Source: Actinomycetaceae bacterium TAE3-ERU4
Lineage (GTDB): Bacteria; Actinomycetota; Actinomycetes; Actinomycetales; Actinomycetaceae
Length of the DNA: 64,000 nt
NCBI GenBank assembly: GCA_019218365.1
Contig: JAHUUJ010000001.1
Span: forward strand, 434,001-498,000
Direction: 5' to 3'
Shown: positions 33,414 to 48,272 of the stretch, in pieces
How the letters are laid out: the number at the start of each line of letters is the position of its first letter
Numbering within the stretch: position 1 is the first letter of the stretch
The notes under the pieces: model-generated
The model's database searches: none
Seen by the model: only the letters and a program-made list of their open reading frames with translations
What the model was told of the DNA's origin: nothing
Position numbers and translations under genes: made by a program

Positions 33414-35000
33414 CTAGCCGAGACAGCGGCGTAAAGAATCGGCGTTAAAACGCATGAGGGAAATATAGGAGGGGACTTTTTCGTCGAGAGTGTCGGAATA
33501 GATTGGGCAGACTTGGGCTTTTGCATCTGCGGCCACCTGTGTAAGTTCGGTGTTGCGAGTGGCCAGATAGGGTTCGAGGAATACTGCTTTTACCTTCAGG
33601 TCGTGCATGGTTCGAGCCAGTCGTACGCGGTCTGCAACGGAAGGTTCAATTCCAGGGTTTAGGCTAATGTATCCGGCGATTTTCAGACCGTAGGCGTGCG
33701 CGAGATACCCGTATGCGTCATGGGTGGTGACCAGGGTGCGCGAGGCTGGGGGGATAGCTTCGATCTGTTTGCGCACGTAACGGTCTACCTCGTCTAGTTG
33801 AGCGAGGTAGGTGCGTGTGTTGGCCGCGTATTGTTCGGCTCCGGCGGGGTCTACCTGGATTAGGGTGTCACGGATTGACTGGGCGTATGCTTTGGCGTTG
33901 CGAATGTCGTGCCACAGGTGGGGATCGATTTCTCCGTGGACGTGTTTACCGAGGACGGCTTGGGCGAGGAGATAAACCTCCTGCCCGGGGGTTCCAAGGA
34001 ACCTGAATTCGCGTCCTGCGGGTATGTTTTGGAGCGCTTTTGGAGGGACGTGAATAACTGTTTTTGCGGGGTCGAGGTCGCGCTGAGTGTATTCTCCGCC
34101 GCCCTTGGGGTCGGTAAATAGGGTGATTTTATTTTTGTCGATATCTGCGGTGATGTCTACGTGCCCGGCGTCGATAACTTTCATGTTGCGGGTGCGCGAA
34201 TCTTGGGAGGGGTCGATTCCGACGGCGAAGGTGATTTGGGCTTTTCCAGCTGGGGCATCTCCCCGGGTGGGATTTTCGTGTTTGCCGCTGGGGGAGGGCT
34301 TGAGGTGGAGGGTTCCTTGGAGGTCAAGGGTGTAGATTCCGGGTTTGCTGAAAGCCCAAGACATGTGAGTGTGGGCGTCGAGGGGAAGGGTGGCGGTGTC
34401 TGCTTGGTCAATGCCGTCGGCAGAGTTGAAATAGATGTCAGCCTGACCGAAGGTGGCGGTCAGGTAGCCGGAAAGTTGCCCGGGGCCTTGGAAACCGGTG
34501 GCGGTAAGGGTTGCTTCGGAAGCGCGGGTAGCTCCACGATTTTTGCCGTTGCCGCGGATTCGCAGTCCGAGCCAGACGGTGTCGAGAGAAGCATCTTCAA
34601 CCAGGGGAATGACTTCTGCCGAGTATTTTGAGGCGTCCTCGGCAAGGGCAATGTTGGGTGCTCCGGGGCGTAGGTTTGCGTCAATGGCTTTGATGAGTGA
34701 ATGTTCTTCAAGCATCACATAGTTTGTGAAAGCAGCATCGGCATAGACGATGGAGCGAATGTTGCGCAAGGTTGGTTCGTAACTGTGCGGGTCTGCTCCG
34801 GGGGGAACTAGGGCGGTGACATTCGCTCGTTCCCCGGCGATGTTTCGGGCAATGTCCGCGATGATTGCGGTGGAGGTAACTACCTGTGGTTTTCCGTTTT
34901 TTCCGGCCGTAGCGACGGGGGGAACTAGGGCGAATGAGAGAAGAAGAAAAAACCCAATTACGGCTGTCATTGCGCCGTAAAACGACAATTTATTACGCAA
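33414..35000 (-). CDS. Metal-binding protein of the anchored-repeat ABC transporter, with inserted anchor-M domain
   Basis: 528 residues, far more than the 300 of ZnuA-type binding proteins. A signal peptide (1-32) is followed by the first ZnuA half (38-130, with PPGADPHSYEP, H72), then an inserted choice-of-anchor M repeat (about 140-350, LDAHTHMSWAFSKPGIYTL), then the second half with GKHVHGEIDPHLWHD and TTHDAYGYLAHAYGLK. Histidines H72, H355, H361 and H364 are candidate metal ligands. TTG start at 35000 with AAAGGG. It leads the four-gene operon, downstream of a Zur-like operator. Confidence 0.88.
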   Translation of the reverse strand: MRNKLSFYGAMTAVIGFFLLLSFALVPPVATAGKNGKPQVVTSTAIIADIARNIAGERANVTALVPPGADPHSYEPTLRNIRSIVYADAAFTNYVMLEEHSLIKAIDANLRPGAPNIALAEDASKYSAEVIPLVEDASLDTVWLGLRIRGNGKNRGATRASEATLTATGFQGPGQLSGYLTATFGQADIYFNSADGIDQADTATLPLDAHTHMSWAFSKPGIYTLDLQGTLHLKPSPSGKHENPTRGDAPAGKAQITFAVGIDPSQDSRTRNMKVIDAGHVDITADIDKNKITLFTDPKGGGEYTQRDLDPAKTVIHVPPKALQNIPAGREFRFLGTPGQEVYLLAQAVLGKHVHGEIDPHLWHDIRNAKAYAQSIRDTLIQVDPAGAEQYAANTRTYLAQLDEVDRYVRKQIEAIPPASRTLVTTHDAYGYLAHAYGLKIAGYISLNPGIEPSVADRVRLARTMHDLKVKAVFLEPYLATRNTELTQVAADAKAQVCPIYSDTLDEKVPSYISLMRFNADSLRRCLG

Positions 35001-35921: not shown

Positions 35922-36970
35922 TTAATTGCAATAAGAGGATTTATACGAGAGGCAGAAAGAACGGAGAAACCCGCTCCTAAAAGGCTGAATGCAACCATAA
36001 TTGCGCCAATTAGCCCAAAAAGAATCCAAGGAATAGTGAAAGGAACGGCCGCGGGAAGGGTAGCGGCAGCGGCAAGGGTGAGGCTAACCGCAAGAACTGA
36101 ACCGGCAATTGACAAGATTGCAGTTTGCCAGAAAACCGAGAAAGCGATTGTCTTATTACCTATTCCCTGGGCTTTCATAACCCCAAAAATCTTACGTTTT
36201 TGCAAGGTAAGAACATAGATGAATACCCCGAGGATAACCGCTGAAACTAAAATTAGTGCCCCTACCATTAGGGCAAAAGTCAGATTCTGGGCAGAAACTC
36301 CGGGAATGTTGTCGGTGAACTCACTAATGGTTTGTGATTTGAGGTGCGCAGCGCGCAAACTTTCGGCGGTAAAGCTACCCCGGGCGGCGATAGCGGAAAC
36401 TGCATTGCGGTATTGCACGCCAGTAGTCTGCCAATCGGGAATGCTTAGGTAAATTACGGGGTATGAACTGTAGGTTTGATTGTGGGTAAAGCCGACAATC
36501 TTAAATTTCAAGTTTGACTGTGAAGTATGGAAAATATCGCCAAGCTTGTAACCTTCGCGTTTTAGGGAATCGTCTACAACTACCTCGCCGCTACTTGCAT
36601 AAAGTTTTCCTTCGGTAACCTTTGGGGCGGTGAACGAGGTGGGATCCATGGCGAAAGCAAAAGAAGTTAGCTGAGTTCCATCAGACTTTTTTATAGTCAA
36701 CGCGGAAAACCCAAGCTGGGATATTTCTGGTGCTTTAACAAGGTCGGCATCGGTCTGCGGGATAATAGACGCCTGTACCGAATTATTGGAATTGTCCGCC
36801 AGAGCGATATGGTCAGCCTTTAGGTCGGTAGCAGCTTGCGTCATCACGCTCTGTAACCCCACAGCCAATCCGGTAAGAAAGAAAACAAGGATTCCCACAA
36901 GAGTGATAACTGCTGTGATTAGGGAAAAGTGTTTTTTGTTGCGACGAATTTCGCGTAATGCCAAGAACAT
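35918..36970 (-). CDS. FtsX-like ABC permease, HrtB-type
   Basis: 350 residues: helix 1 near 18-40, a large extracellular domain (about 45-230), and three C-terminal helices (232-260, 282-305, 317-342). This four-helix, single-periplasmic-domain layout is that of HrtB and DevC-like permeases rather than the larger MacB. GGAGG precedes the ATG. The pump could export heme or another hydrophobic toxicant; a heme role rests on resemblance only. A TGACAC palindrome lies just upstream. Confidence 0.82.
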   Translation of the reverse strand: MFLALREIRRNKKHFSLITAVITLVGILVFFLTGLAVGLQSVMTQAATDLKADHIALADNSNNSVQASIIPQTDADLVKAPEISQLGFSALTIKKSDGTQLTSFAFAMDPTSFTAPKVTEGKLYASSGEVVVDDSLKREGYKLGDIFHTSQSNLKFKIVGFTHNQTYSSYPVIYLSIPDWQTTGVQYRNAVSAIAARGSFTAESLRAAHLKSQTISEFTDNIPGVSAQNLTFALMVGALILVSAVILGVFIYVLTLQKRKIFGVMKAQGIGNKTIAFSVFWQTAILSIAGSVLAVSLTLAAAATLPAAVPFTIPWILFGLIGAIMVAFSLLGAGFSVLSASRINPLIAIK

Positions 36971-37000
36971 AGGGCCTCCAATAACTTATCTAAAGCCATT

Positions 37001-37039
37001 ATGACACCGTGTCATATAAAAGTCTAGGGGGTGTGACAC
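37001..37039 (-). promoter_or_regulatory. TGACAC palindrome upstream of the HrtBA-like operon
   Basis: ATGACACCGTGTCAT (37001-37015) is a perfect 7-bp inverted repeat about a central base. A second GTGTGACAC unit (37031-37039) contains another TGACAC. Such spaced palindromes are typical operators for TetR- or ArsR-family repressors; no such gene is adjacent. Confidence 0.55.
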
Positions 37040-37113
37040 GATGTACGAAACCCAACAAAAAGGCAGGTAAAATAAAATAAGCAAGCGGGTTAGACGAGGA
37101 AGCGGGTGATTGG

Positions 37114-37719
37114 GTGCGCGGTGAAAAAACCGAAGAATATGTGGTGGGAAAGATTCGCGTACTCGTCACCTATAAAAAAGTAAAAAACCTAAATCTAAGA
37201 ATTCGCGTTAGAGACGGCAAGGCTATAGCTTCAGTTCCACGTCGCTATCCGCCGGAAAAAGTGCATTATTGGCTCGAATCGCAACGAGAATGGTTAGAAC
37301 ACCAAACCTTGAAACTTGCCCAAATGCGGCTGCGGCAAAGTGAAACGGTAGCTGCTGCGGGAATTGAAAAAATTAGTGAAAATCCGTGCCAGCAAAAACA
37401 ACAACGCGAACAACTGCACGCAAAAGCAATGCGGATGATAGAAATCTGGGCCCCAAAAATGGGGGAACTTCGACCCTCCTCGCTTACAATCCGCATCATG
37501 CGCACCAGGTGGGGATCATGTAATCACGCGACCCGCAGTATAAATCTAAACCTGGAGCTGTTGGCTCGACCCGAATGGGCTTTGGAATACGTTATTGTGC
37601 ACGAACTCGCACACCTCTACCATCGTGGGCATGGCCCGCAGTTTTGGGAAATGGTCGAAGATGTGCTGCCCGACTGGAAAGAACGTCGCCGTGCCCTACG
37701 AAAAATACCCCCAATTTAA
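37114..37719 (+). CDS. YgjP/SprT-like zinc metallopeptidase-domain protein
   Basis: 201 residues of the YgjP-like (DUF45, M48-related) family. VIVHELAHLYHRGHGPQFWEMVE contains the HExxH zinc site at H163-H167. The N-terminal half holds the usual RNLNLRIRVRDGKAIASVPRRY strand-rich segment. GTG start at 37114 with GAGGAAG. The family is often placed beside restriction or defence genes but no substrate is known; here it lies directly before the CRISPR locus, facing the same way, with its own tracrRNA promoter beginning 4 bp after the stop. Confidence 0.85.
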   Translation: MRGEKTEEYVVGKIRVLVTYKKVKNLNLRIRVRDGKAIASVPRRYPPEKVHYWLESQREWLEHQTLKLAQMRLRQSETVAAAGIEKISENPCQQKQQREQLHAKAMRMIEIWAPKMGELRPSSLTIRIMRTRWGSCNHATRSINLNLELLARPEWALEYVIVHELAHLYHRGHGPQFWEMVEDVLPDWKERRRALRKIPPI

Positions 37720-37722
37720 GGG

Positions 37723-37751
37723 TTGACAGTGAGTGTTTGTGGTGATTTAAT
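37723..37751 (+). promoter_or_regulatory. Promoter of tracrRNA
   Basis: TTGACA (37723-37728), exactly 17 bp, TTTAAT (37746-37751) is nearly the sigma-70 consensus. The start site expected 6-8 nt downstream (about 37757-37759) coincides with the first nucleotides of the anti-repeat. Confidence 0.8.
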
Positions 37752-37756
37752 ACTTA

Positions 37757-37830
37757 AGTAACTGATTCTCAGTAAGCACCGACTCGTTAGCGGTGTTGAT
37801 TTCTAGCCGGCCTTTAGGGGCCGGTTTTTT
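37757..37830 (+). ncRNA. tracrRNA of the type II-C CRISPR system
   Basis: About 74 nt. Nucleotides 37758-37773 (GTAACTGATTCTCAGT) match the last 16 bases of the plus-strand CRISPR repeat with only two C-to-T changes, both giving G.U wobbles with a crRNA read from the minus strand. A small hairpin follows (CACCG at 37777-37781 with CGGTG at 37791-37795), then a terminator hairpin CCGGCC/GGCCGG (37807-37824) ending in six T (37825-37830). A promoter, anti-repeat, nexus-like stem and terminator in this order identify tracrRNA; no RNA data were available. Confidence 0.88.
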
Positions 37831-38022
37831 ATTGCTCTTTTTGGACTTGCCACCAATTCCCTGTGTTGGAAATTTGTTTGTTTTTAATCTTTGGCGTAGA
37901 ATGCAAAAATAGTGTGATGTTGACAACAGTGAAGTTAGTCTACTTTTGTTATTTTTTGTGTGTATCATCATAGGTAAGCTTGGTGGGTTGAGTGTAACCC
38001 AAATTTTAGAGATGGAGAAGTG
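37831..38022 (+). promoter_or_regulatory. cas9 leader region
   Basis: The 192-bp AT-rich gap after tracrRNA has no supported gene. It should carry the cas operon promoter: TTGACA at 37920-37925 and TATCAT at 37963-37968 are both present but too far apart to form one promoter, so none can be fixed. GGAG at 38014-38017 is 5 nt before the cas9 ATG and excludes the GTG at 38020. Confidence 0.45.
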
Positions 38023-41000
38023 ATGAAACCTTATAGATATCGAGTGGGAATCGATGTGGGTCTTAACTCGGTAGGAGTCGCCGCAGTTGCAATTGATGCA
38101 GCAGGTCATCCAACGGAAATTCTTAATGCGCAGTCTTGGTTGCACGACGGTGGAATTGACCCAAACCATCGGAAAACTAATCTCACCCGTTTGGCTATAG
38201 CGGGTACTGCGCGACGTACCCGACGTCTATATCGTGAGCGAAAGCGTCGTCTACGTAATCTTGATTCATGGTTGATTGAAAACGGATATCCTCTCCCCAG
38301 CTTAGAAGATTTCGAGAATCCGCGGGAGCCTTGGTTGGCCCGAGCTGAATTAGCGGAAGGGTTCATTGATGATGAATCTTTACGAAAGGAAAAAATTTCA
38401 ATTGCCTTGCGGCACATGGCTCGTCACCGTGGATGGCGTTCTCCGTATGTGCGGGTAGAAGCTTTGTTTGAGGAACAGCCTCGCAGTGAACTTTTTAATG
38501 CACTACGAGAGCGGATTGTTGAAAAATTAGGTAAGCCTGTGTCTGAAGAGGCTACGCAGGCTCAACTTATTTCTGCTTTAGGGGACCTTGATTTAAGCAA
38601 GTTGCGTTATGGAAAAGATGGCAATGGGTTGCTTGGGGGAAAACTTGAGCAAAGGGATAATGCCTATGAGCTAATGGTAATTGCTAGGGTACAAAAGATT
38701 TCTGATAAGGAACTTAAAGATTGGATTCGTCAGGTATTTAAAGCAAAATCACCGCGCGGTTCATATGTGGAACTAATTGGTAAGGATGCTCTTCCTGGGC
38801 AGGAAGAACTTCCGCGTGCTTCTAAAGCACATCCAGATTTCCAGCGTTACAGAGTAGCGGCTGTTCTTGCTAATGTGCGGATTAAACCTGAAGGAGAATC
38901 CCAGCGTCCCCTTACCATGGAGGAACGTGCAGAATGTTTTGAGACCCTGTTAGGGGATAGGAAAACTAACTTTTCTTGGGCAGATATTGCCAATTTACTC
39001 GGAGTGGAAAAAAATCAACTTACCGGGGCTGCGGCAACAAGTAGGGTTGATGATGAGCCTCTTTCTGCTCACCCTCCGGTAGATACAACCGACAGGGAAA
39101 TTAGTTCTTGTAAGATTAAGCCCTTGAAGGATTGGTGGGAAAACGCAAGCGAAGCTGCTCGTGTTGAACTAATTGAGCATTTGGCTGATGGAAGTGAAGC
39201 TTCTGAGGAAGTATCTGAACTATTTCATGTATTTACTGAAGAAGACTTGGTTAATCTAGAGAAACTTAACTTATCAGCGGGACGGGCTGCTTATTCAGCT
39301 GATTCTCTCCGTCGTCTAACTGACTGCATGATGTCTGAAGGTGTGGACCTTTATGAAGCGCGGCGGATTGTGTTCGGAGTTCCGGAAGATTGGGAGCCTC
39401 CGGCGGCTCCTATCTGGCAACCGTTACGTAATCCAGCGGTAGATAGAGTGCTGAAAATTGTTAACCGGTGGTTGCAGGCTGCAGTGAGGGAGTGGGGAGA
39501 ACCTGAATCTATCAATATTGAGCATGTGCGGGAAGGTTTTGTTTCTAACTTAGTAGCGGAAGATTTTAAGCGTTCGCTAAAGCGCCGAGAAACTGTAAAC
39601 AAGAATGTTAAAGATACACTTAAACGAGTCCTTGGTGATTCTTCGAAAGTGCGTTCTAGTGATATCAAGCGTTGGCGTGCCTTGCAACGGCAGAACTGCA
39701 TGTGTGCATACTGTGGAAGTTCCATAGATTTTACAACTGCTGAGATGGACCATATTGTGCCGCGTAAGGGGGTCGGATCTAATTCGACTATGGAAAATCT
39801 ATTGGCAACCTGTATTGATTGCAATCGCCAAAAGAGCAATCAACTTTTTTCGGTTTGGGCAGCTTCTTCGACTAAGCCGGGTGTGTCTCTAGTGGAAGCA
39901 TTAAAACGAGTTGATACTTGGAACGAAGAGCCGGATTACTTTAATAAGAAGCAATTTAATGAGTTTAAACGTGCGGTTAAGGCACGGCTGAAGCGTAAAC
40001 AGGTTGATCCCGAATTTGATAGTAGATCAATAGAAAGCGTTGCTTGGATGGCTCGTGAGTTACGCCATCGTATTAAGGGAGCCTTCCCTAGCGCTACGGT
40101 TAGGGTATTCCGCGGACAGGTGACCTCCGAAGCTCGTAAGTGTTCTGGATTTGAGCGTCAGATGAAACTAATTGGCGGTCGCGGGAAGACGCGTTTTGAT
40201 CGGCGACACCATGCAATGGATGCTCTGGTAATTTCTATGATGCGTCATTCCGTGGCTCAGACTTTGATTATGCGTTCTGACCTGAGGTCTACAGAGTATG
40301 TTGCGGGTAATCCGGTAGGAAGTGGATTGAAATCTTGGAAAGAGTATTGTGGAGCTAGTGATGGGGATAAACGTCTTTATCACGAATGGCGTGAAGATAT
40401 GGAGAAACTACTTTCTCTGACTAATGACTATCTGGATGCAGATAGGGTTGCGGTAAATGTTCCTCTACGCTTGAAGTTAGCAGACTCGAAAGCGCATGAC
40501 GATACGGTTTCACCGCTTAACCGTTCGGTGAGGGTGAAGGACGAGATGTCTGCTGATTTGATTGCCAAATCTGCGATACCGGGTCAGTGGGTAGCTTTGA
40601 CTCGTCATCCTGATTATTCGGAAAAATATGGATTACCGGCAGATGATGAACGGACGTTATATATTAATGGACGTCATTTGGGTCCCGAAGATACTTTGGA
40701 GTTTTTCAAAGCTGCTGCTGTGCAAAAGAAAGTTCGTGAGGGAGCTGTGGCAATTGGTGACACTATTCACCATGCACGAATTTACCTAATTAAGGGAAAG
40801 AAACCCAGCTACGGAATGGTGCGGGTTTTTGCCGATGATTTACTGGCACACCAAAAGGAAGATTTATTTAGTGTAGAGCTTAAAGCCCATTCTTCAAGTA
40901 TGAGGTTTGCTCATCCAAAGGTGAGTAAAGCAATTATTGAAGGTAATGCAGAGCTACTTGGCGTCTTAGTTGTCGGTGATGAAATTATTATGGATACTTC

Positions 41001-41307
41001 AAATTTTAAGTCTAAGGATTTGAAGAGTCTGTCAGACTACATAAAACCTATTGATAGGTGGCAAGTGTCTGGTTTTGGAGAAGCAACGAAGATTAAAATA
41101 AGACCTCGTTGTCTTTCGTCTGAAGGACTTGAGAGAGTTGGGCTGGAAGAAGATAAAGGTGCTTTGAATATATTTGGTTCTTCAGGTGTGCGTGTAGCAG
41201 TTCAACCTTTTATGACAGGTTTAATCAAAGTAGTGAGACGTGATGCTCTGGGTCGTGAAATTCCTCCCGGTTCTGTTGGTCGGTTAGGATCTTGGGCTGT
41301 GGAGTGA
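38023..41307 (+). CDS. cas9: Type II-C CRISPR nuclease Cas9
   Basis: 1094 residues, close to A. naeslundii Cas9 (1101) and short as in subtype II-C. RuvC-I is at D11 (GIDVGLNSVG); an Arg-rich bridge helix (RRTRRLYRERKRRLR) follows; RuvC-II has E500 (INIEHVR); HNH has D576 and H577 (EMDHIVPR); RuvC-III has H729-H730 and D733 (HHAMDA). C561, C564, C597 and C600 form a CxxC pair as in the zinc site of A. naeslundii Cas9. All catalytic residues are present, so it should be active. It heads an operon with cas1 (6-bp gap) and cas2; no csn2 or cas4 follows. Codon use looks richer in A/T than in flanking genes. Confidence 0.97.
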   Translation: MKPYRYRVGIDVGLNSVGVAAVAIDAAGHPTEILNAQSWLHDGGIDPNHRKTNLTRLAIAGTARRTRRLYRERKRRLRNLDSWLIENGYPLPSLEDFENPREPWLARAELAEGFIDDESLRKEKISIALRHMARHRGWRSPYVRVEALFEEQPRSELFNALRERIVEKLGKPVSEEATQAQLISALGDLDLSKLRYGKDGNGLLGGKLEQRDNAYELMVIARVQKISDKELKDWIRQVFKAKSPRGSYVELIGKDALPGQEELPRASKAHPDFQRYRVAAVLANVRIKPEGESQRPLTMEERAECFETLLGDRKTNFSWADIANLLGVEKNQLTGAAATSRVDDEPLSAHPPVDTTDREISSCKIKPLKDWWENASEAARVELIEHLADGSEASEEVSELFHVFTEEDLVNLEKLNLSAGRAAYSADSLRRLTDCMMSEGVDLYEARRIVFGVPEDWEPPAAPIWQPLRNPAVDRVLKIVNRWLQAAVREWGEPESINIEHVREGFVSNLVAEDFKRSLKRRETVNKNVKDTLKRVLGDSSKVRSSDIKRWRALQRQNCMCAYCGSSIDFTTAEMDHIVPRKGVGSNSTMENLLATCIDCNRQKSNQLFSVWAASSTKPGVSLVEALKRVDTWNEEPDYFNKKQFNEFKRAVKARLKRKQVDPEFDSRSIESVAWMARELRHRIKGAFPSATVRVFRGQVTSEARKCSGFERQMKLIGGRGKTRFDRRHHAMDALVISMMRHSVAQTLIMRSDLRSTEYVAGNPVGSGLKSWKEYCGASDGDKRLYHEWREDMEKLLSLTNDYLDADRVAVNVPLRLKLADSKAHDDTVSPLNRSVRVKDEMSADLIAKSAIPGQWVALTRHPDYSEKYGLPADDERTLYINGRHLGPEDTLEFFKAAAVQKKVREGAVAIGDTIHHARIYLIKGKKPSYGMVRVFADDLLAHQKEDLFSVELKAHSSSMRFAHPKVSKAIIEGNAELLGVLVVGDEIIMDTSNFKSKDLKSLSDYIKPIDRWQVSGFGEATKIKIRPRCLSSEGLERVGLEEDKGALNIFGSSGVRVAVQPFMTGLIKVVRRDALGREIPPGSVGRLGSWAVE

Positions 41308-41313
41308 TGTGAG

Positions 41314-42213
41314 ATGGACCGGGGCTGGCGAGTTATTGACTGTAGTTCGTTAGAGGGAAGCTTGAGTGCTTCTCGCGGACGTTTGCTAGTTAAGTCCGCT
41401 GAGCGGGAAGCAAGTTCCCTACCCGTGGAGGACATTGCAGTTGTTCTCGTTGGCCCCAAGGTTCATCTGTCTGTAGCTGCATTGCATCGTTTAGCTACTT
41501 CGGATGTAGCTGTTTTAGTTTGTGATTGGCGGGGTGTGCCTTATTGTGCGCTTAATTCTTGGGGAGAGCATAGTAGGGTAGGAGCTAGGGCTAGAGCGCA
41601 GGCTAATTTATCCGTTCCTCGTACAAAGAATGCTTGGTCTCGCATTGTGAAGGCAAAGGTTAGGGGACAAGCAGCTAATCTCGCTATTTTAGGATTAGGT
41701 GGGGAAAAGCTTTTGCTTTCGTTAGCAAAAGAGGTCAAGAGTGGGGACGTCGGTAACGTTGAGGGGCGTGCCGCCAGAATCTATTGGCAACAGATGTTTG
41801 GTCGAGATTTTATCCGTGATCGTGATTTAGCTGGGATTAACGCCTGTTTGAACTATGGGTATGCGGTATTGCGCGGGCATGGGATAAGGGCGGTAGCTTC
41901 AGCTGGTTTATTGCCTGCTCTGGGAATTTTTCATCGAGGTCGTTCCAATGCTTTTAATTTGGTTGATGATTTGATTGAACCTTTTCGTCCGGCTATTGAT
42001 TATGCAGTTTCTTTGTTACCAGAAGACGCTAATCCAAGTGATTCTGAGGTGAAGAAGAGTCTAGTAGGGGCGGCCGATCAACCATTTACTGAGGGTGGTT
42101 TTCGACTTTCAACTGTTTTTGAGGATTTTGCTCAAGGTCTTGGTTGTTATGTTGAAGGAGAGGGAACTTATCTAAAAGTTCCCCAGTGGCATGGGCCGGT
42201 GGTGTCTGAATGA
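41314..42213 (+). CDS. cas1: CRISPR integrase Cas1
   Basis: 299 residues of the type II Cas1 family. The conserved metal site is E150 (GNVEGRAAR), H207 (GIFHRGRSNAFNLVDD) and E222 (DDLIEPFRP). With Cas2 it cuts and joins new spacers at the array. ATG at 41314 follows the cas9 stop by 6 bp, with GGAG upstream; the stop overlaps cas2. RMxR-type substrate contacts cannot be assigned. A sequence of type II-C size with nothing truncated. Confidence 0.96.
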   Translation: MDRGWRVIDCSSLEGSLSASRGRLLVKSAEREASSLPVEDIAVVLVGPKVHLSVAALHRLATSDVAVLVCDWRGVPYCALNSWGEHSRVGARARAQANLSVPRTKNAWSRIVKAKVRGQAANLAILGLGGEKLLLSLAKEVKSGDVGNVEGRAARIYWQQMFGRDFIRDRDLAGINACLNYGYAVLRGHGIRAVASAGLLPALGIFHRGRSNAFNLVDDLIEPFRPAIDYAVSLLPEDANPSDSEVKKSLVGAADQPFTEGGFRLSTVFEDFAQGLGCYVEGEGTYLKVPQWHGPVVSE

Positions 42214-42530
42214 GTGATGATGCTATGTGGTGCATTGTAATGTTTGATTTTCCTGTAAAAACTAGTGAACAGCGAAGATATGCAACTAGTTTTAGGGAAA
42301 AAATTCTTGATTTAGGGTTCGTGCGGATTCAGTATTCTGTATATGCGCGTTACAATCCGTCACCATCAGGTGATTATTCTAGAATCAAAAATTTATTGAA
42401 GTATTTACCTGAGTATGGGTATGTGAGAGTGCTATATATTTCTGATCGACAGTGGGCAAAGTCGCTTAAATTTTTTAATGCTATGCCTGAAGACCCTGAT
42501 TATCCGCCTGAACAATTATCTTTTTTCTAA
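42210..42530 (+). CDS. cas2: CRISPR-associated protein Cas2
   Basis: 106 residues with the ferredoxin-like start WCIVMFDFPVKTSEQRRYATSFREKILDLGFVRIQYSVYAR; D13 is the conserved acidic residue after strand 1. It bridges the two Cas1 dimers in the integrase complex. The ATG overlaps the cas1 stop (ATGA). The stop codon abuts the long palindrome at 42531. Confidence 0.95.
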   Translation: MSDDAMWCIVMFDFPVKTSEQRRYATSFREKILDLGFVRIQYSVYARYNPSPSGDYSRIKNLLKYLPEYGYVRVLYISDRQWAKSLKFFNAMPEDPDYPPEQLSFF

Positions 42531-42572
42531 CTATTTTGGGGCTATTTTCCGCAGAAAATAGCCCCAAAATAG
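42531..42572. terminator. Perfect 19-bp palindrome between cas2 and the array
   Basis: CTATTTTGGGGCTATTTTC, a CGCA loop, and its exact reverse complement. It begins one base after the cas2 stop and ends 7 bp before the first repeat. It probably stops the cas operon and, from the other side, the pre-crRNA, since transcription converges here. No T-run follows on either side, so it may have another role, for example marking the integration end. Confidence 0.65.
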
Positions 42573-42579
42573 CCTTCCC

Positions 42580-45500
42580 TAAGTCTATCAAAGGGAAAGG
42601 TAACTGATTCCCAGCTAGTGATGAGCGTATCTCTAAGGAAATGTAAGTCTATCAAAGGGAAAGGTAACTGATTCCCAGCTGCAAGCGGTAAATGGTGTGA
42701 CGTGAGTTAAGTCTATCAAAGGGAAAGGTAACTGATTCCCAGCCCTCATGTACCGATTGATGAAGTATTGCTAAGTCTATCAAAGGGAAAGGTAACTGAT
42801 TCCCAGCCCCCAAGAAACAGCAAGCTAGTTAGTTATAAGTCTATCAAAGGGAAAGGTAACTGATTCCCAGCCGGATTGGAAACAAGGAGAAATTATTATT
42901 AAGTCTATCAAAGGGAAAGGTAACTGATTCCCAGCCCAAGCTATAACAATGTTCCCGCCGCAATAAGTCTATCAAAGGGAAAGGTAACTGATTCCCAGCA
43001 TCCTCTCTAGTGAGTCGGCAACGCGGTTAAGTCTATCAAAGGGAAAGGTAACTGATTCCCAGCTCATACACACACGCTACGTGATAATGCATAAGTCTAT
43101 CAAAGGGAAAGGTAACTGATTCCCAGCCAAGCCGTGAACGAACGCATAAACACGTAAGTCTATCAAAGGGAAAGGTAACTGATTCCCAGCTATAACCAAA
43201 GTTGTTGATTTGGTGAAATAAGTCTATCAAAGGGAAAGGTAACTGATTCCCAGCGGTAATCGCTCTTTTTGAAAAAAAAGCTTAAGTCTATCAAAGGGAA
43301 AGGTAACTGATTCCCAGCACGTGCTTACCTACGTCGAACGCTCGTATAAGTCTATCAAAGGGAAAGGTAACTGATTCCCAGCCGAGTGGTAAAGCGTTGC
43401 AGGAGCTGCGTAAGTCTATCAAAGGGAAAGGTAACTGATTCCCAGCAGACCTGGGAAAATGATTACCGCGCTGGTAAGTCTATCAAAGGGAAAGGTAACT
43501 GATTCCCAGCATATCAGGGAATGGATAGCGGGGTGTACTAAGTCTATCAAAGGGAAAGGTAACTGATTCCCAGCCCTACGCTTGGCAGCTGTTTCTGCGA
43601 TTTAAGTCTATCAAAGGGAAAGGTAACTGATTCCCAGCAAGATGAAGCGCTGGGCGAGCCTACTGTTAAGTCTATCAAAGGGAAAGGTAACTGATTCCCA
43701 GCATCTATCAACGGTATTTTTTGTCTACTGTAAGTCTATCAAAGGGAAAGGTAACTGATTCCCAGCGCGACATGTCCTATTATATTTATGTAAGTAAGTC
43801 TATCAAAGGGAAAGGTAACTGATTCCCAGCCTGTCCCGACTGCAATTTCTATGTGTCCTAAGTCTATCAAAGGGAAAGGTAACTGATTCCCAGCGCGTAT
43901 TTCGCGTCCTGTTTGTGCGTCGTAAGTCTATCAAAGGGAAAGGTAACTGATTCCCAGCTAGAGAGCCAAGCGAAATACTGGTTGCGTAAGTCTATCAAAG
44001 GGAAAGGTAACTGATTCCCAGCACAATGACGCGCGTGCCATTTGGAAGACTAAGTCTATCAAAGGGAAAGGTAACTGATTCCCAGCGGTTGCTTTAACCT
44101 CGTCTGACTCACTCTAAGTCTATCAAAGGGAAAGGTAACTGATTCCCAGCTGTTAGCGTCTACCTTGATTTTCCCCTCTAAGTCTATCAAAGGGAAAGGT
44201 AACTGATTCCCAGCACGCTCCCAAGGTCCCGATTTAGCTGTATAAGTCTATCAAAGGGAAAGGTAACTGATTCCCAGCATGTCTAGTTAGAGCAGTAAAA
44301 TAATCCTAAGTCTATCAAAGGGAAAGGTAACTGATTCCCAGCTGGACAACTGAACTTCCATAAAATCACCTAAGTCTATCAAAGGGAAAGGTAACTGATT
44401 CCCAGCAACGTCCAAATATAGGTTCCTTGCCGGCTAAGTCTATCAAAGGGAAAGGTAACTGATTCCCAGCAATGGAGCTAGCCACAGACCGCGCGCAATA
44501 AGTCTATCAAAGGGAAAGGTAACTGATTCCCAGCGGTCAAACTCGGCGCGCTCGTTTCCACCTAAGTCTATCAAAGGGAAAGGTAACTGATTCCCAGCTC
44601 AGTGACGGTGCGTACTGTGCCGAATTTAAGTCTATCAAAGGGAAAGGTAACTGATTCCCAGCCGAATCTTGAGCGTGCCATTTTTCCTCCTAAGTCTATC
44701 AAAGGGAAAGGTAACTGATTCCCAGCTGATAGATGCGATGTACAGCTCATTCCATAAGTCTATCAAAGGGAAAGGTAACTGATTCCCAGCGTGAGCTTTA
44801 GCAAAGCCAGTCACCAATTAAGTCTATCAAAGGGAAAGGTAACTGATTCCCAGCCAATACCCGAAACGGTGAATCTATCTTCTAAGTCTATCAAAGGGAA
44901 AGGTAACTGATTCCCAGCCGAATACAAAGCGCCTTAAGCGCGGTGGTAAGTCTATCAAAGGGAAAGGTAACTGATTCCCAGCTGACAGTCGCAGCATATA
45001 GCTCATTCCATAAGTCTATCAAAGGGAAAGGTAACTGATTCCCAGCAGGGTACTGCAAGGCCGATTACGGTGCGTAAGTCTATCAAAGGGAAAGGTAACT
45101 GATTCCCAGCCCGCGATTTTATCGCTTGTGTGTCCAGCTAAGTCTATCAAAGGGAAAGGTAACTGATTCCCAGCTGGTGCTTTGACTACGTTCGGTGCTG
45201 GTTAAGTCTATCAAAGGGAAAGGTAACTGATTCCCAGCCAAAGGCGCGGCTATTCTTGGAGCCGCCTAAGTCTATCAAAGGGAAAGGTAACTGATTCCCA
45301 GCTAAATGCGATTTTCATTTTCGACTGAGCTAAGTCTATCAAAGGGAAAGGTAACTGATTCCCAGCGGTTCCAGCCGCCTTTGTCGCGGCGAAGTAAGTC
45401 TATCAAAGGGAAAGGTAACTGATTCCCAGCGAACGGAACGGCTTTGCCGTCTTGTCCGTAAGTCTATCAAAGGGAAAGGTAACTGATTCCCAGCTGGACT

Positions 45501-46580
45501 TAAGGCGAGTAAAGCTGTAGGTTAAGTCTATCAAAGGGAAAGGTAACTGATTCCCAGCGTAAGAACTGGCTGGCGGCTCCGTAGTCTAAGTCTATCAAAG
45601 GGAAAGGTAACTGATTCCCAGCGCTACCGCCAACACGAAATCATGATGACTAAGTCTATCAAAGGGAAAGGTAACTGATTCCCAGCTCCAGTTGCCGTTA
45701 GTAGAGAAAGTGTATAAGTCTATCAAAGGGAAAGGTAACTGATTCCCAGCCGGGTGGGTAAAAACCTATAGCGGAATTTAAGTCTATCAAAGGGAAAGGT
45801 AACTGATTCCCAGCCCTCGTATAGGCTCTCAACCTGCGCGTATAAGTCTATCAAAGGGAAAGGTAACTGATTCCCAGCCCTCGTATAGGCTCTCAACCTG
45901 CGCGTATAAGTCTATCAAAGGGAAAGGTAACTGATTCCCAGCCTTGATTTCTTCAGGAGTTAAGCCAGTGTAAGTCTATCAAAGGGAAAGGTAACTGATT
46001 CCCAGCTCACACCAAAGACCAGGTAAGGGGGGTTAAGTCTATCAAAGGGAAAGGTAACTGATTCCCAGCATAGGCAAAGTTCTATACGAAGACTCCGTAA
46101 GTCTATCAAAGGGAAAGGTAACTGATTCCCAGCTTCGGCGTCTAGGGCGGATACTAGCTGTTAAGTCTATCAAAGGGAAAGGTAACTGATTCCCAGCAAA
46201 GTCCCGGCGTTATAACCGCCTTTGCTAAGTCTATCAAAGGGAAAGGTAACTGATTCCCAGCGCATTTTTTCGCGCGCCTCATTAGCGTCTAAGTCTATCA
46301 AAGGGAAAGGTAACTGATTCCCAGCAAAAGTCGCCGCGTAATAGTGGGTCGGTTAAGTCTATCAAAGGGAAAGGTAACTGATTCCCAGCAAAAGTCGCCG
46401 CGTAATAGTGGGTCGGTTAAGTCTATCAAAGGGAAAGGTAACTGATTCCCAGTGCGCGTTTTTATGAGCCGTCTGATTGGGTAAATCTATCAAAGGGAAA
46501 GGTAACTGATTCTTAATCGCGTATTTTCGCCTTGGTGAAGTTTGGTAGGTATGTGAAAGCAAATGTAACCGACTCCCAGC
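42580..46580 (-). CRISPR. Type II-C CRISPR array, 63 repeats and 62 spacers
   Basis: Repeats of 36 bp begin TAAGTCTATCAAAGGG and end AACTGATTCCCAGC on the plus strand. Starts fall every 64 bp from 42580 to 46418, with two 63-bp steps (43092-43155 and 45971-46034), giving 61 near-identical copies. Copy 61 ends in T. Copies 62 (46482) and 63 (46545) are decayed; copy 63 matches at about 24 of 36 positions. Spacers are 28 nt, with two of 27. Spacers 51/52 and 59/60 are identical neighbours. The strand is that of the predicted crRNA, from pairing with tracrRNA. The decayed end is distal to the cas genes, so integration is probably at the cas2 side. Confidence 0.99.
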
Positions 46581-46629
46581 ACTCAACCCAACACTATCTA
46601 GAGAAAAAGTTTCACTTTGGGAACAATGC

Positions 46630-46640
46630 AGTCTATCAAA
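46630..46640 (-). repeat. Orphan fragment of the CRISPR repeat beyond the array
   Basis: AGTCTATCAAA is identical to repeat positions 3-13. It lies 83 bp after the start of repeat 63, out of the 64-bp register. On the minus strand it reads TTTGATAGACT, the part of the repeat that resembles an extended -10 promoter. It may be a remnant repeat or a true promoter for the array's distal end. Confidence 0.45.
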
Positions 46641-46701
46641 CTTTAGTCCTATAGGGTTGATAATTTTCGTTTTTGGTGACCACTACCGCACTCGCAAAAA
46701 T

Positions 46702-46729
46702 TTGTGTTTATGTTGTTAGGGTCTAGAAT
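46702..46729 (+). promoter_or_regulatory. Putative promoter of the nucleobase permease
   Basis: TTGTGT (46702-46707), 16 bp, TAGAAT (46724-46729). This would give a 5' untranslated region of about 125 nt. Confidence 0.45.
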
Positions 46730-46748
46730 GTTTGGCGAGGTTAATGAC

Positions 46749-46802
46749 ATGCAGAGACGTGCCGCCCTCGGAAAGAATGACCTAAGCCAACTGTTTTTGT
46801 AG
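46749..46802 (+). CDS. Possible 17-codon leader peptide
   Basis: ATG at 46749 with GCGAGG 8 nt upstream opens a 17-residue frame (MQRRAALGKNDLSQLFL) ending TAG at 46800, 57 bp before the permease gene. Its ending CTGTTTTTG is U-rich. It could couple translation to expression of the permease, but a chance ORF is possible. Confidence 0.35.
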   Translation: MQRRAALGKNDLSQLFL

Positions 46803-46808
46803 GGGGTA

Positions 46809-46843
46809 TTAGGGCAGCCGGACCGGCGGGCGCCGAAGCCTAA
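46809..46843 (+). promoter_or_regulatory. Structured GC-rich leader element
   Basis: TTAGGGC (46809-46815) can pair with GCCTAA (46838-46843) around an inner CGGC/GCCG hairpin. It sits just before the permease ribosome binding site. No known riboswitch consensus was recognised. Confidence 0.35.
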
Positions 46844-46859
46844 ACCGGAAAGGAAGCTA

Positions 46860-48272
46860 ATGGCCGCCCCTCAAACTGAAAAATCCACAAAACAGGTGGA
46901 AACAAAAAAACATGCTTTTTCCTGGACCCTTCACGGGGACGGATGCAGTATCGCTCCCGGGGAAGTTGTTCTTCCTAATGAGCGCCTGAGCTGGCCCCGT
47001 ACTGTCGGGATTGGTCTCCAGCACGTAATCGCAATGTTCGGGGCGACCTTCCTCGTTCCATTGCTTACCGGGTTTGACCCCGCGACGACCCTGTTCTTTA
47101 CCGGTACGGGAACCATCTTATTCCTGCTGATTACTGCCGGTCGCCTACCTTCCTACCTGGGATCTTCCTTCGCTTTGCTTGCGCCCATTGGTGCTGTTAC
47201 CGGATATGTTGCCTCTGGCGGGAGCCCCCTCGACCCAGCCAAGCAGGCGCTGGCGCAGGGAGGAATTATTGCGGTAGGTGCAACTTTGGCTGTTGTTGGT
47301 CTAATTGTGCACTTTGCCGGCGCTGGTTGGATTGACAAGCTCATGCCCCCAGTCGTTACCGGTGCTATTGTCTCCCTAATTGGGTTTAACCTGGCGCCTG
47401 CCGCCTGGGGAAGTGTGCAGAAAGCACCCGTAACTGCTGTAGTTACAATTATTTCTATCTTGCTGATTACCGTTTTGTTCAAGGGAATTATCGGACGTCT
47501 TTCGATTCTCTTCGGTGTGCTAATCGGTTACGCAACTGCCGCTGTTCGAGGTGAGGTTGACTTCACTAGTATCGGTAACGCCTCCTGGTTTGGAACCCCC
47601 CACTTCCACGCTCCAGCCTTTGACCCCAGCACCCTCGGTCTGTTTATCCCGGTTGTGTTGGTTCTAATTGCCGAGAACGTTGGTCACGTAAAGTCCGTTT
47701 CCGCTATGACTGGTGAAAACCTTGATGATGTCACCGGGCGTGCACTGTTCGCAGACGGTCTTTCCACCGTATTAGCCGGTTCCGGTGGTGGTTCTGGAAC
47801 TACCACCTATGCCGAGAACATTGGTGTTATGGCCGCAACTCGTGTGTACTCGACCGCCGCTTACGTAGTAGCTGCGATGACTGCCCTCGGTCTGTCAATG
47901 CTCCCGAAGTTCGGCGCGCTTATTGCCACTATCCCAGCCGGGGTGCTTGGTGGAGCTGCAACTGTTCTCTACGGAATGATTGGTATGCTAGGTGTCCGTA
48001 TTTGGGTACAGAACCAGGTGGACTTCTCCAACCCGGTAAACCTAAACACCGCCGCTGTTTCCATGATTGTTGCAATCGCTAACTACACCCTGCTAGTCGG
48101 AGACGCCAAGTTTGAAGGAATTGCTCTCGGCTCCGGTGCCGCAATTCTTATCTACCACGTCATGTACTGGATTTCTAAGGTGCGTGGCACCAACCTGGAA
48201 GCCGCCACCCCAGCTTCTGCCCCGGCGGGAACTGACCTGGAATCTGAAGCGTACAAGACTCGTCACCGCTGA
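46860..48272 (+). CDS. Uracil/xanthine permease (NCS2/UraA family)
   Basis: 470 residues with about fourteen helices in the 7+7 inverted-repeat fold. GLQHVIAMFGATFLVPLLTGFDP (helix 1 region), SFALLAPIGAVTGY and the QTTYAENIGV-like segment here read GSGTTTYAENIGVMAATRVYS, with the transport-site Glu in the VLIAENVGHV helix, all mark NCS2 nucleobase/proton symporters. UraA-type (pyrimidine) is more likely than xanthine/uric acid from these motifs. AAAGGAAG precedes the ATG. It is the first gene after the CRISPR array. Confidence 0.93.
   Translation: MAAPQTEKSTKQVETKKHAFSWTLHGDGCSIAPGEVVLPNERLSWPRTVGIGLQHVIAMFGATFLVPLLTGFDPATTLFFTGTGTILFLLITAGRLPSYLGSSFALLAPIGAVTGYVASGGSPLDPAKQALAQGGIIAVGATLAVVGLIVHFAGAGWIDKLMPPVVTGAIVSLIGFNLAPAAWGSVQKAPVTAVVTIISILLITVLFKGIIGRLSILFGVLIGYATAAVRGEVDFTSIGNASWFGTPHFHAPAFDPSTLGLFIPVVLVLIAENVGHVKSVSAMTGENLDDVTGRALFADGLSTVLAGSGGGSGTTTYAENIGVMAATRVYSTAAYVVAAMTALGLSMLPKFGALIATIPAGVLGGAATVLYGMIGMLGVRIWVQNQVDFSNPVNLNTAAVSMIVAIANYTLLVGDAKFEGIALGSGAAILIYHVMYWISKVRGTNLEAATPASAPAGTDLESEAYKTRHR

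Follow-up and report, generated by a model that had tools for sequence, protein, structure and literature searches.

A tracrRNA gene with a promoter predicted to start on the anti-repeat in a type II-C CRISPR-Cas locus of Actinomycetaceae bacterium TAE3-ERU4

Does the tracrRNA of a small Cas9 system begin where its own promoter would place it, directly on the anti-repeat, or is it cut back to that point from a longer transcript, and is such a layout peculiar to a single gene? The question is raised by a compact gene at 37757–37830 of the window (the whole 64,000-nt stretch of Actinomycetaceae bacterium TAE3-ERU4 that was analysed), for which the first-pass annotation proposed a promoter starting on the anti-repeat and a noteworthy short duplex. 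It is an ordinary tracrRNA gene of a small Cas9 system, a fresh example of a familiar type. Very probably it belongs to an intact type II-C system in which a sigma-70-type promoter would start an RNA of about 73 nt on the anti-repeat and the crRNAs would come from promoters within the repeats.

Table 1. Features of the tracrRNA gene and of the adjoining CRISPR-Cas locus, in window coordinates
Feature	Position	Strand	Basis and remarks
−35 hexamer TTGACA	37723–37728	+	read from the sequence; predicted promoter of the tracrRNA
−10 hexamer TTTAAT	37746–37751	+	read from the sequence; at the site where relatives carry TAnnnT, itself no TAnnnT
Alternative −10 AATACT	37749–37754	+	score on the −10 matrix of the relatives
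Anti-repeat, 16 nt, GTAACTGATTCTCAGT	37758–37773	+	pairing search, cofold, ungapped match
First tracrRNA hairpin, nexus-like	37775–37797	+	fold and covariation in relatives
Intrinsic terminator, 9-pair stem and six T	37805–37830	+	sequence, terminator listing, fold
cas9, 1094 aa	38023–41307	+	TIGR01865 over cut-off; Pfam Cas9_a, RuvC_III, HNH
cas1, 299 aa, type II Cas1	41314–42213	+	TIGR03639 cas1_NMENI over cut-off
cas2, 106 aa	42210–42530	+	TIGR01573 over cut-off
CRISPR array, 62 repeats of 36 nt, 61 spacers	42580–46517	− (crRNA strand)	repeat reading

The two promoter hexamers stand 17 bp apart and six bases separate TTTAAT from the anti-repeat; counted seven bases after the −10, +1 falls on G37758. 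The promoter and 16-nt anti-repeat of the first-pass annotation can thus be read directly, with the correction that the anti-repeat begins at 37758 rather than 37757, A37757 facing C17 of the repeat unpaired. The anti-repeat is near-identical to one half of the array repeat, and is therefore complementary to crRNA transcribed from the − strand. Cofolding with the repeat, which had been proposed as a check, gives 16 contiguous pairs, two of them G-U (RNAcofold, 37758–37831 plus repeat, −50.1 kcal/mol), and after this duplex come the hairpin and then the terminator stem (37805–37826), the last two of whose nine pairs use T from the run of six at 37825–37830. Sequence and fold also agree with the small hairpin, the six-T terminator and the length of about 74 nt given earlier, the predicted RNA being 73–74 nt long. 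One predicted fold counts against the main reading: by itself the anti-repeat forms a small hairpin of its own. Rfam gave no match in 36900–46900 at E up to 1, which counts only against membership in a listed Rfam family.

A tracrRNA with better pairing elsewhere, which the first-pass annotation had named among the findings that would speak against its reading, was sought in the window and in the 1.70-Mb genome. Among ungapped 16-mers of the 64 kb outside the array, 37758–37773 comes closest to the anti-repeat predicted from the repeat: it has two differences, both of which retain a G-U pair, and the next-best 16-mer has three. A looser pairing search, allowing mismatches and many G-U pairs, scores 34377–34394 slightly higher (37 vs 36 for the 37758 site), and we rejected it as a broken, G-U-rich match within the ORF 33414–35000. 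The 13-base core AACTGATTCYCAG has, at up to one mismatch, seven matches in the genome beyond the array and the 37758 site, one exact and six with one mismatch. Read one by one, these were rejected as second anti-repeats: around each of the seven a reading frame stays open over roughly 300 bases, a run of five T is absent from all of them within the tested 75 nt, and none has the hairpin-terminator pattern. The 37758 site has no open frame and carries both hairpins and the T run.

Which −10 hexamer serves the gene is less plain. The strict promoter scan does not list the TTTAAT promoter, because TTTAAT is without an A at −10 position 2, and the overlapping AATACT outscores it on a −10 matrix drawn from 51 relatives (see below). 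Transcription from AATACT would begin at about 37761 and leave a 13-nt anti-repeat, a length that may be set beside the median contiguous duplex of 13.5 bp in 16 bifidobacterial loci. That matrix, however, was built solely from hexamers picked as TAnnnT, and AATACT has no good −35 at the spacings tried (at best 2 of 6 matches), whereas TTTAAT has TTGACA at 17 bp. We consider a start from AATACT unlikely. From the sequence, the start could lie anywhere in 37757–37761, always among the first bases of the anti-repeat.

We then compared the gene, read with TTTAAT as its −10, with those of relatives. Within Actinomycetaceae, Cas9 was matched in 42 of 200 genomes, including the window's own and four weak partial matches. 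With the Cas9 of the window alone as query the genome contigs gave zero matches; an alignment of 20 Cas9s gave 115 relatives, of which the best 80 loci, from named genomes, were used, and the kept genera include Actinomyces, Gleimia, Arcanobacterium, Corynebacterium, Bifidobacterium and Gardnerella. By the rule used, 99 of 118 loci have an array (many genomes being represented twice), and 81 of these 99 have an anti-repeat on the cas9 strand at most 1.7 kb upstream, chance matches counted in. The other 18 have none at threshold, and some of them, such as L044 and L097 (A. naeslundii), show an interrupted one by eye, so the set is biased toward uninterrupted ones. Merging identical regions left 60; inspection by eye removed L070, L141 and L117 as chance matches more than 1 kb from cas9, giving 57 distinct loci. 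A likely true interrupted anti-repeat of the L141 genome is visible under L046.

Anti-repeats usually lie 80–250 bp upstream of cas9. More distant ones occur at about 1.48 kb in Arcanobacterium pluranimalium (L120, 4505–4592), 0.79 kb in Alloscardovia criceti (L123) and 0.47 kb in Bifidobacterium simiarum (L100). In one genome (G074, locus L065) the cas9 match is split into two parts some 3.8 kb apart, and the anti-repeat keeps its normal position, roughly 130 bp ahead of the N-terminal part. Another genome (G196) has two different Cas9 genes (L036 and L068), 46% and 34% identical to that of the window.

With the loci lined up on the 3′ end of the anti-repeat, TAnnnT stands 18–23 nt before that end in 51 of the 57 distinct loci. 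In 500 shuffles this number averaged 7.3 and never exceeded 15, and in seven control windows taken farther upstream the motif occurs in 1–5 of the 57; the remaining upstream positions hold little information. Six loci, that of the window among them, have no TAnnnT at the expected place; the window has instead the weaker TTTAAT behind a perfect TTGACA. A −35-like hexamer (at least 4 of 6 matches, 16–19 nt from the −10) is found in 21 of the 51 relatives, against a shuffled mean of 7.0 and maximum of 16. A promoter on the anti-repeat is, by sequence comparison, the usual layout among comparable relatives. What the first-pass annotation had said of the promoter is accordingly well supported by sequence and comparison, and is not distinctive, since 51 of 57 loci have the −10 in the same place. 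The short duplex did not hold up as a distinguishing trait either: the contiguous duplex is 13–19 bp long in 53 of 54 loci, namely those with a hexamer in a wider range of 17–26 nt, the window having been entered by hand as TTTAAT.

Pairing with the repeat ends about where the predicted RNA begins. With one locus of a 5-nt contiguous duplex (L089) set aside, the predicted start and the first duplex base are at most 3 nt apart in 52 of the 53 remaining loci and at most 1 nt apart in 41. Gaps drawn evenly from the allowed range give 35.9 and 15.9 of 53, and permuting the real gaps among loci gives 49.2 and 31.8. The gaps between −10 and anti-repeat fall in a narrow range and permutation still yields 49.2 of 53, so that the shared position of the predicted promoter in relatives is firm, while the idea that each promoter is tuned to its own duplex is weakly supported. 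Likewise, the distance of the −10 correlates with duplex length over the 53 loci (rho 0.57), and splitting weakened this as a rule within groups: rho is −0.14 in the 16 bifidobacterial loci, 0.84 in six of Corynebacterium and 0.25 (P 0.17) in the other 31, which makes the correlation mostly a difference between groups.

The same comparison bears on whether the main tracrRNA is instead first made as a longer RNA, either from a promoter farther upstream or through read-through of the gene before it, and then trimmed by RNase III to the anti-repeat. That gene (37114–37719) encodes a YgjP-like metallopeptidase (PF01863) and stops 3 nt before the −35; since no + strand terminator is listed between its stop and the promoter, longer read-through RNAs may occur. 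The −10 of the window, moreover, is no TAnnnT, and Campylobacter jejuni has tracrRNA in two lengths, about 74 and 62 nt (PMC3656092). Against trimming as the main route stand the perfect TTGACA at 17 bp spacing, the common place of the −10 amid otherwise uninformative upstream positions, and the coincidence of the end of the pairing with the predicted start. We regard the longer transcript as rather improbable. For a start at the TTTAAT promoter, it is fair to infer that the tracrRNA would need no 5′ trimming.

The first hairpin was aligned in 47 of the 57 loci (the ten omitted include L129, L138 and L148), and its pairing is far better kept than in shuffled alignments: 87.9% of cells are paired (63.4% in shuffles), double-sided changes number 109 (35.9), and the covariation score is 0.683 (0.217), falling to at most 0.116 when the partners are slid by 1–3 columns. 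Two further counts are of little use. Six pairs have changed on both sides, vs 5.7 in shuffles, a value reached by 378 of 500, which does not discriminate; and the 24 further pair types, vs 20.6, hardly do so (reached by 4 of 500). Three of the nine pairs, outer or on the loop side, are broken in 11, 9 and 18 of the 47 sequences. The signal is carried by the six core pairs, which RNAalifold predicts too, and this covariation indicates that selection acts on the hairpin as RNA. The gene has what marks a tracrRNA: an anti-repeat to the local repeat, a hairpin conserved in relatives and a terminator, the last as read in the window.

Downstream, cas9, cas1 and cas2 adjoin, the Pfam RuvC_III and HNH matches in Cas9 score over cut-off, and there is no extra ORF of at least 80 aa from cas2 to the end of the array; the operon holds these three genes, with no csn2 or cas4 in it. 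By this gene content the system is of type II-C, and it is very probably intact. A gene for RNase III is present elsewhere in the genome. The array has 59 spacers of 28 nt and two of 27, and 60 of its 62 repeats are identical. That the system is decayed or silent and the tracrRNA gene a relic, as one might suppose from spacers without a match at E up to 0.1 in a phage collection that may omit records near this genome, is hardly credible: all three cas genes are open, the repeats are nearly uniform, and the anti-repeat departs from the repeat only where G-U pairs survive.

Several details of the array deserve description. A perfect hairpin of 19 bp with a 4-base loop (42531–42572) directly follows the cas2 stop, before the array, and could terminate both the cas operon and opposing crRNA transcripts. 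Two spacers are each doubled, with adjacent copies (first copies near 45815 and 46326), and two others, 44727–44754 and 44983–45010, share 20 of 28 bases, as if two related elements had been sampled. The stretch 46482–46580 is the 5′ end of the array in the sense of crRNA transcription. Its outermost repeat, at 46482, has five differences and reads TGATAGATT at its crRNA-strand end, and a strongly degenerate copy, differing at 14 of 36 positions, lies at 46545. From the sequence, the variable end of the array seems to be the cas2-proximal, promoter-distal one.

On the crRNA strand the consensus repeat ends in TGATAGACTTA, which equals an extended −10, found in the repeat of the window as TGATAGACT. 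Such an element is common among the relatives: all 66 distinct repeats (66 of 66) have TAnnnT near their 3′ end and 61 have TGnTAnnnT, a motif that letter-shuffled repeats give in 0.9%. In 55 of these 61 two bases separate the hexamer from the spacer, so that +1 would fall on spacer base 5, and in C. jejuni, where an extended −10 likewise ends each repeat, the measured crRNA starts lie at spacer position five (PMC3656092). In-repeat promoters have been described in several II-C systems; in Neisseria meningitidis crRNAs start within repeats and RNase III is dispensable, as told in PMC5006608. The Riemerella type II-C system, as PMC5006608 presents it, has a 16-nt anti-repeat upstream of cas9, so that this length is not unusual, and no promoter in its repeats; such promoters are thus not universal in II-C systems, nor required. 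Six of our loci (L071, L073, L132, L138, L140 and L148) have an inverted array, whose crRNAs would run with the cas genes, and the crRNA strand keeps the extended −10 in four of the six.

The solved Cas9 chains nearest to that of the window are 4ogc/4oge (E 1e-249), which we take to be AnaCas9 of Actinomyces naeslundii, then 6joo, presumably the Cas9 of C. diphtheriae, and also 8d2k, 6wbr and 6wc0. A. naeslundii resembles the window beyond its Cas9, strain NCTC 10301 (L097) having TATACT 6 nt before the anti-repeat GACTGAATTCC upstream of the cas9 match; unlike the continuous duplex of the window, its anti-repeat matches the repeat with an interruption and scores below the search threshold. 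Six Corynebacterium loci (L080, L083, L085, L092, L105 and L128) share the anti-repeat upstream of cas9, the array downstream, the covarying hairpin and the place of the −10, and differ in duplexes of 16–18 bp and a −10 shifted by up to 2 nt in either direction.

Farther afield, the II-C system of C. jejuni is like that of the window in its three cas genes, the extended −10 in its repeats, its short tracrRNA and the crRNA start predicted here, and unlike it in belonging to another phylum and in some trimming of the tracrRNA (PMC3656092). The II-C arrays of Clostridium cellulolyticum and Defluviimonas are, as here, transcribed against the cas genes, and the final nine repeat bases of C. cellulolyticum resemble an extended −10; according to the same reports, their tracrRNAs, measured as RNA in E. 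coli, are 70–107 and 72–83 nt long (PMC7038990, PMC7708072). Bifidobacterium bombi has its II-C tracrRNA upstream of cas9 on the same strand, predicted by hand in a report whose main text is without the word promoter (PMC4521832); at this locus (L129) we find TATACT 18 nt before the anti-repeat end, as in other relatives, and, unlike in the window, a duplex of 14 bp.

Sequence and comparison together lead us to the following model. A sigma-70-type promoter at 37723–37751 would start the tracrRNA at 37758, the first base of the anti-repeat, and the RNA would end at about 37830, at the terminator (37825–37830). On the opposite strand of the array, each crRNA would probably begin at about spacer base 5, driven by the extended −10 of the repeat upstream of it, giving a guide of 24 nt. 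By analogy with known II-C systems, the 16-nt anti-repeat would pair with the crRNA over the 5′ half of its repeat, and Cas9 would hold duplex and hairpin, RNase III or other nucleases then having only the 3′ tail of the crRNA to cut. Both tracrRNA and crRNA may thus be born with their final 5′ ends.

Tentatively, and with slightly more doubt than belief, we extend this to the II-C systems of Actinomycetota as a whole: a promoter rather than processing would set the tracrRNA 5′ end, at most some 3 nt from where pairing with the repeat begins, and pairing would be kept only where it is transcribed. Together with the −10 boxes in the repeats, this would give both halves of the guide native 5′ triphosphates throughout the clade, RNase III being needed for the crRNA 3′ tail alone or never. 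Our search of the open-licence literature, an incomplete one, turned up no statement of the promoter-on-anti-repeat rule, which may be in print. The single gene is ordinary, and the modest clade-wide promoter rule is the sole point of interest. The rule would aid in predicting full tracrRNA ends for actinobacterial II-C Cas9s, including small Cas9s used as tools, and it makes guide RNA synthesis free of processing testable beyond Neisseria and Campylobacter.
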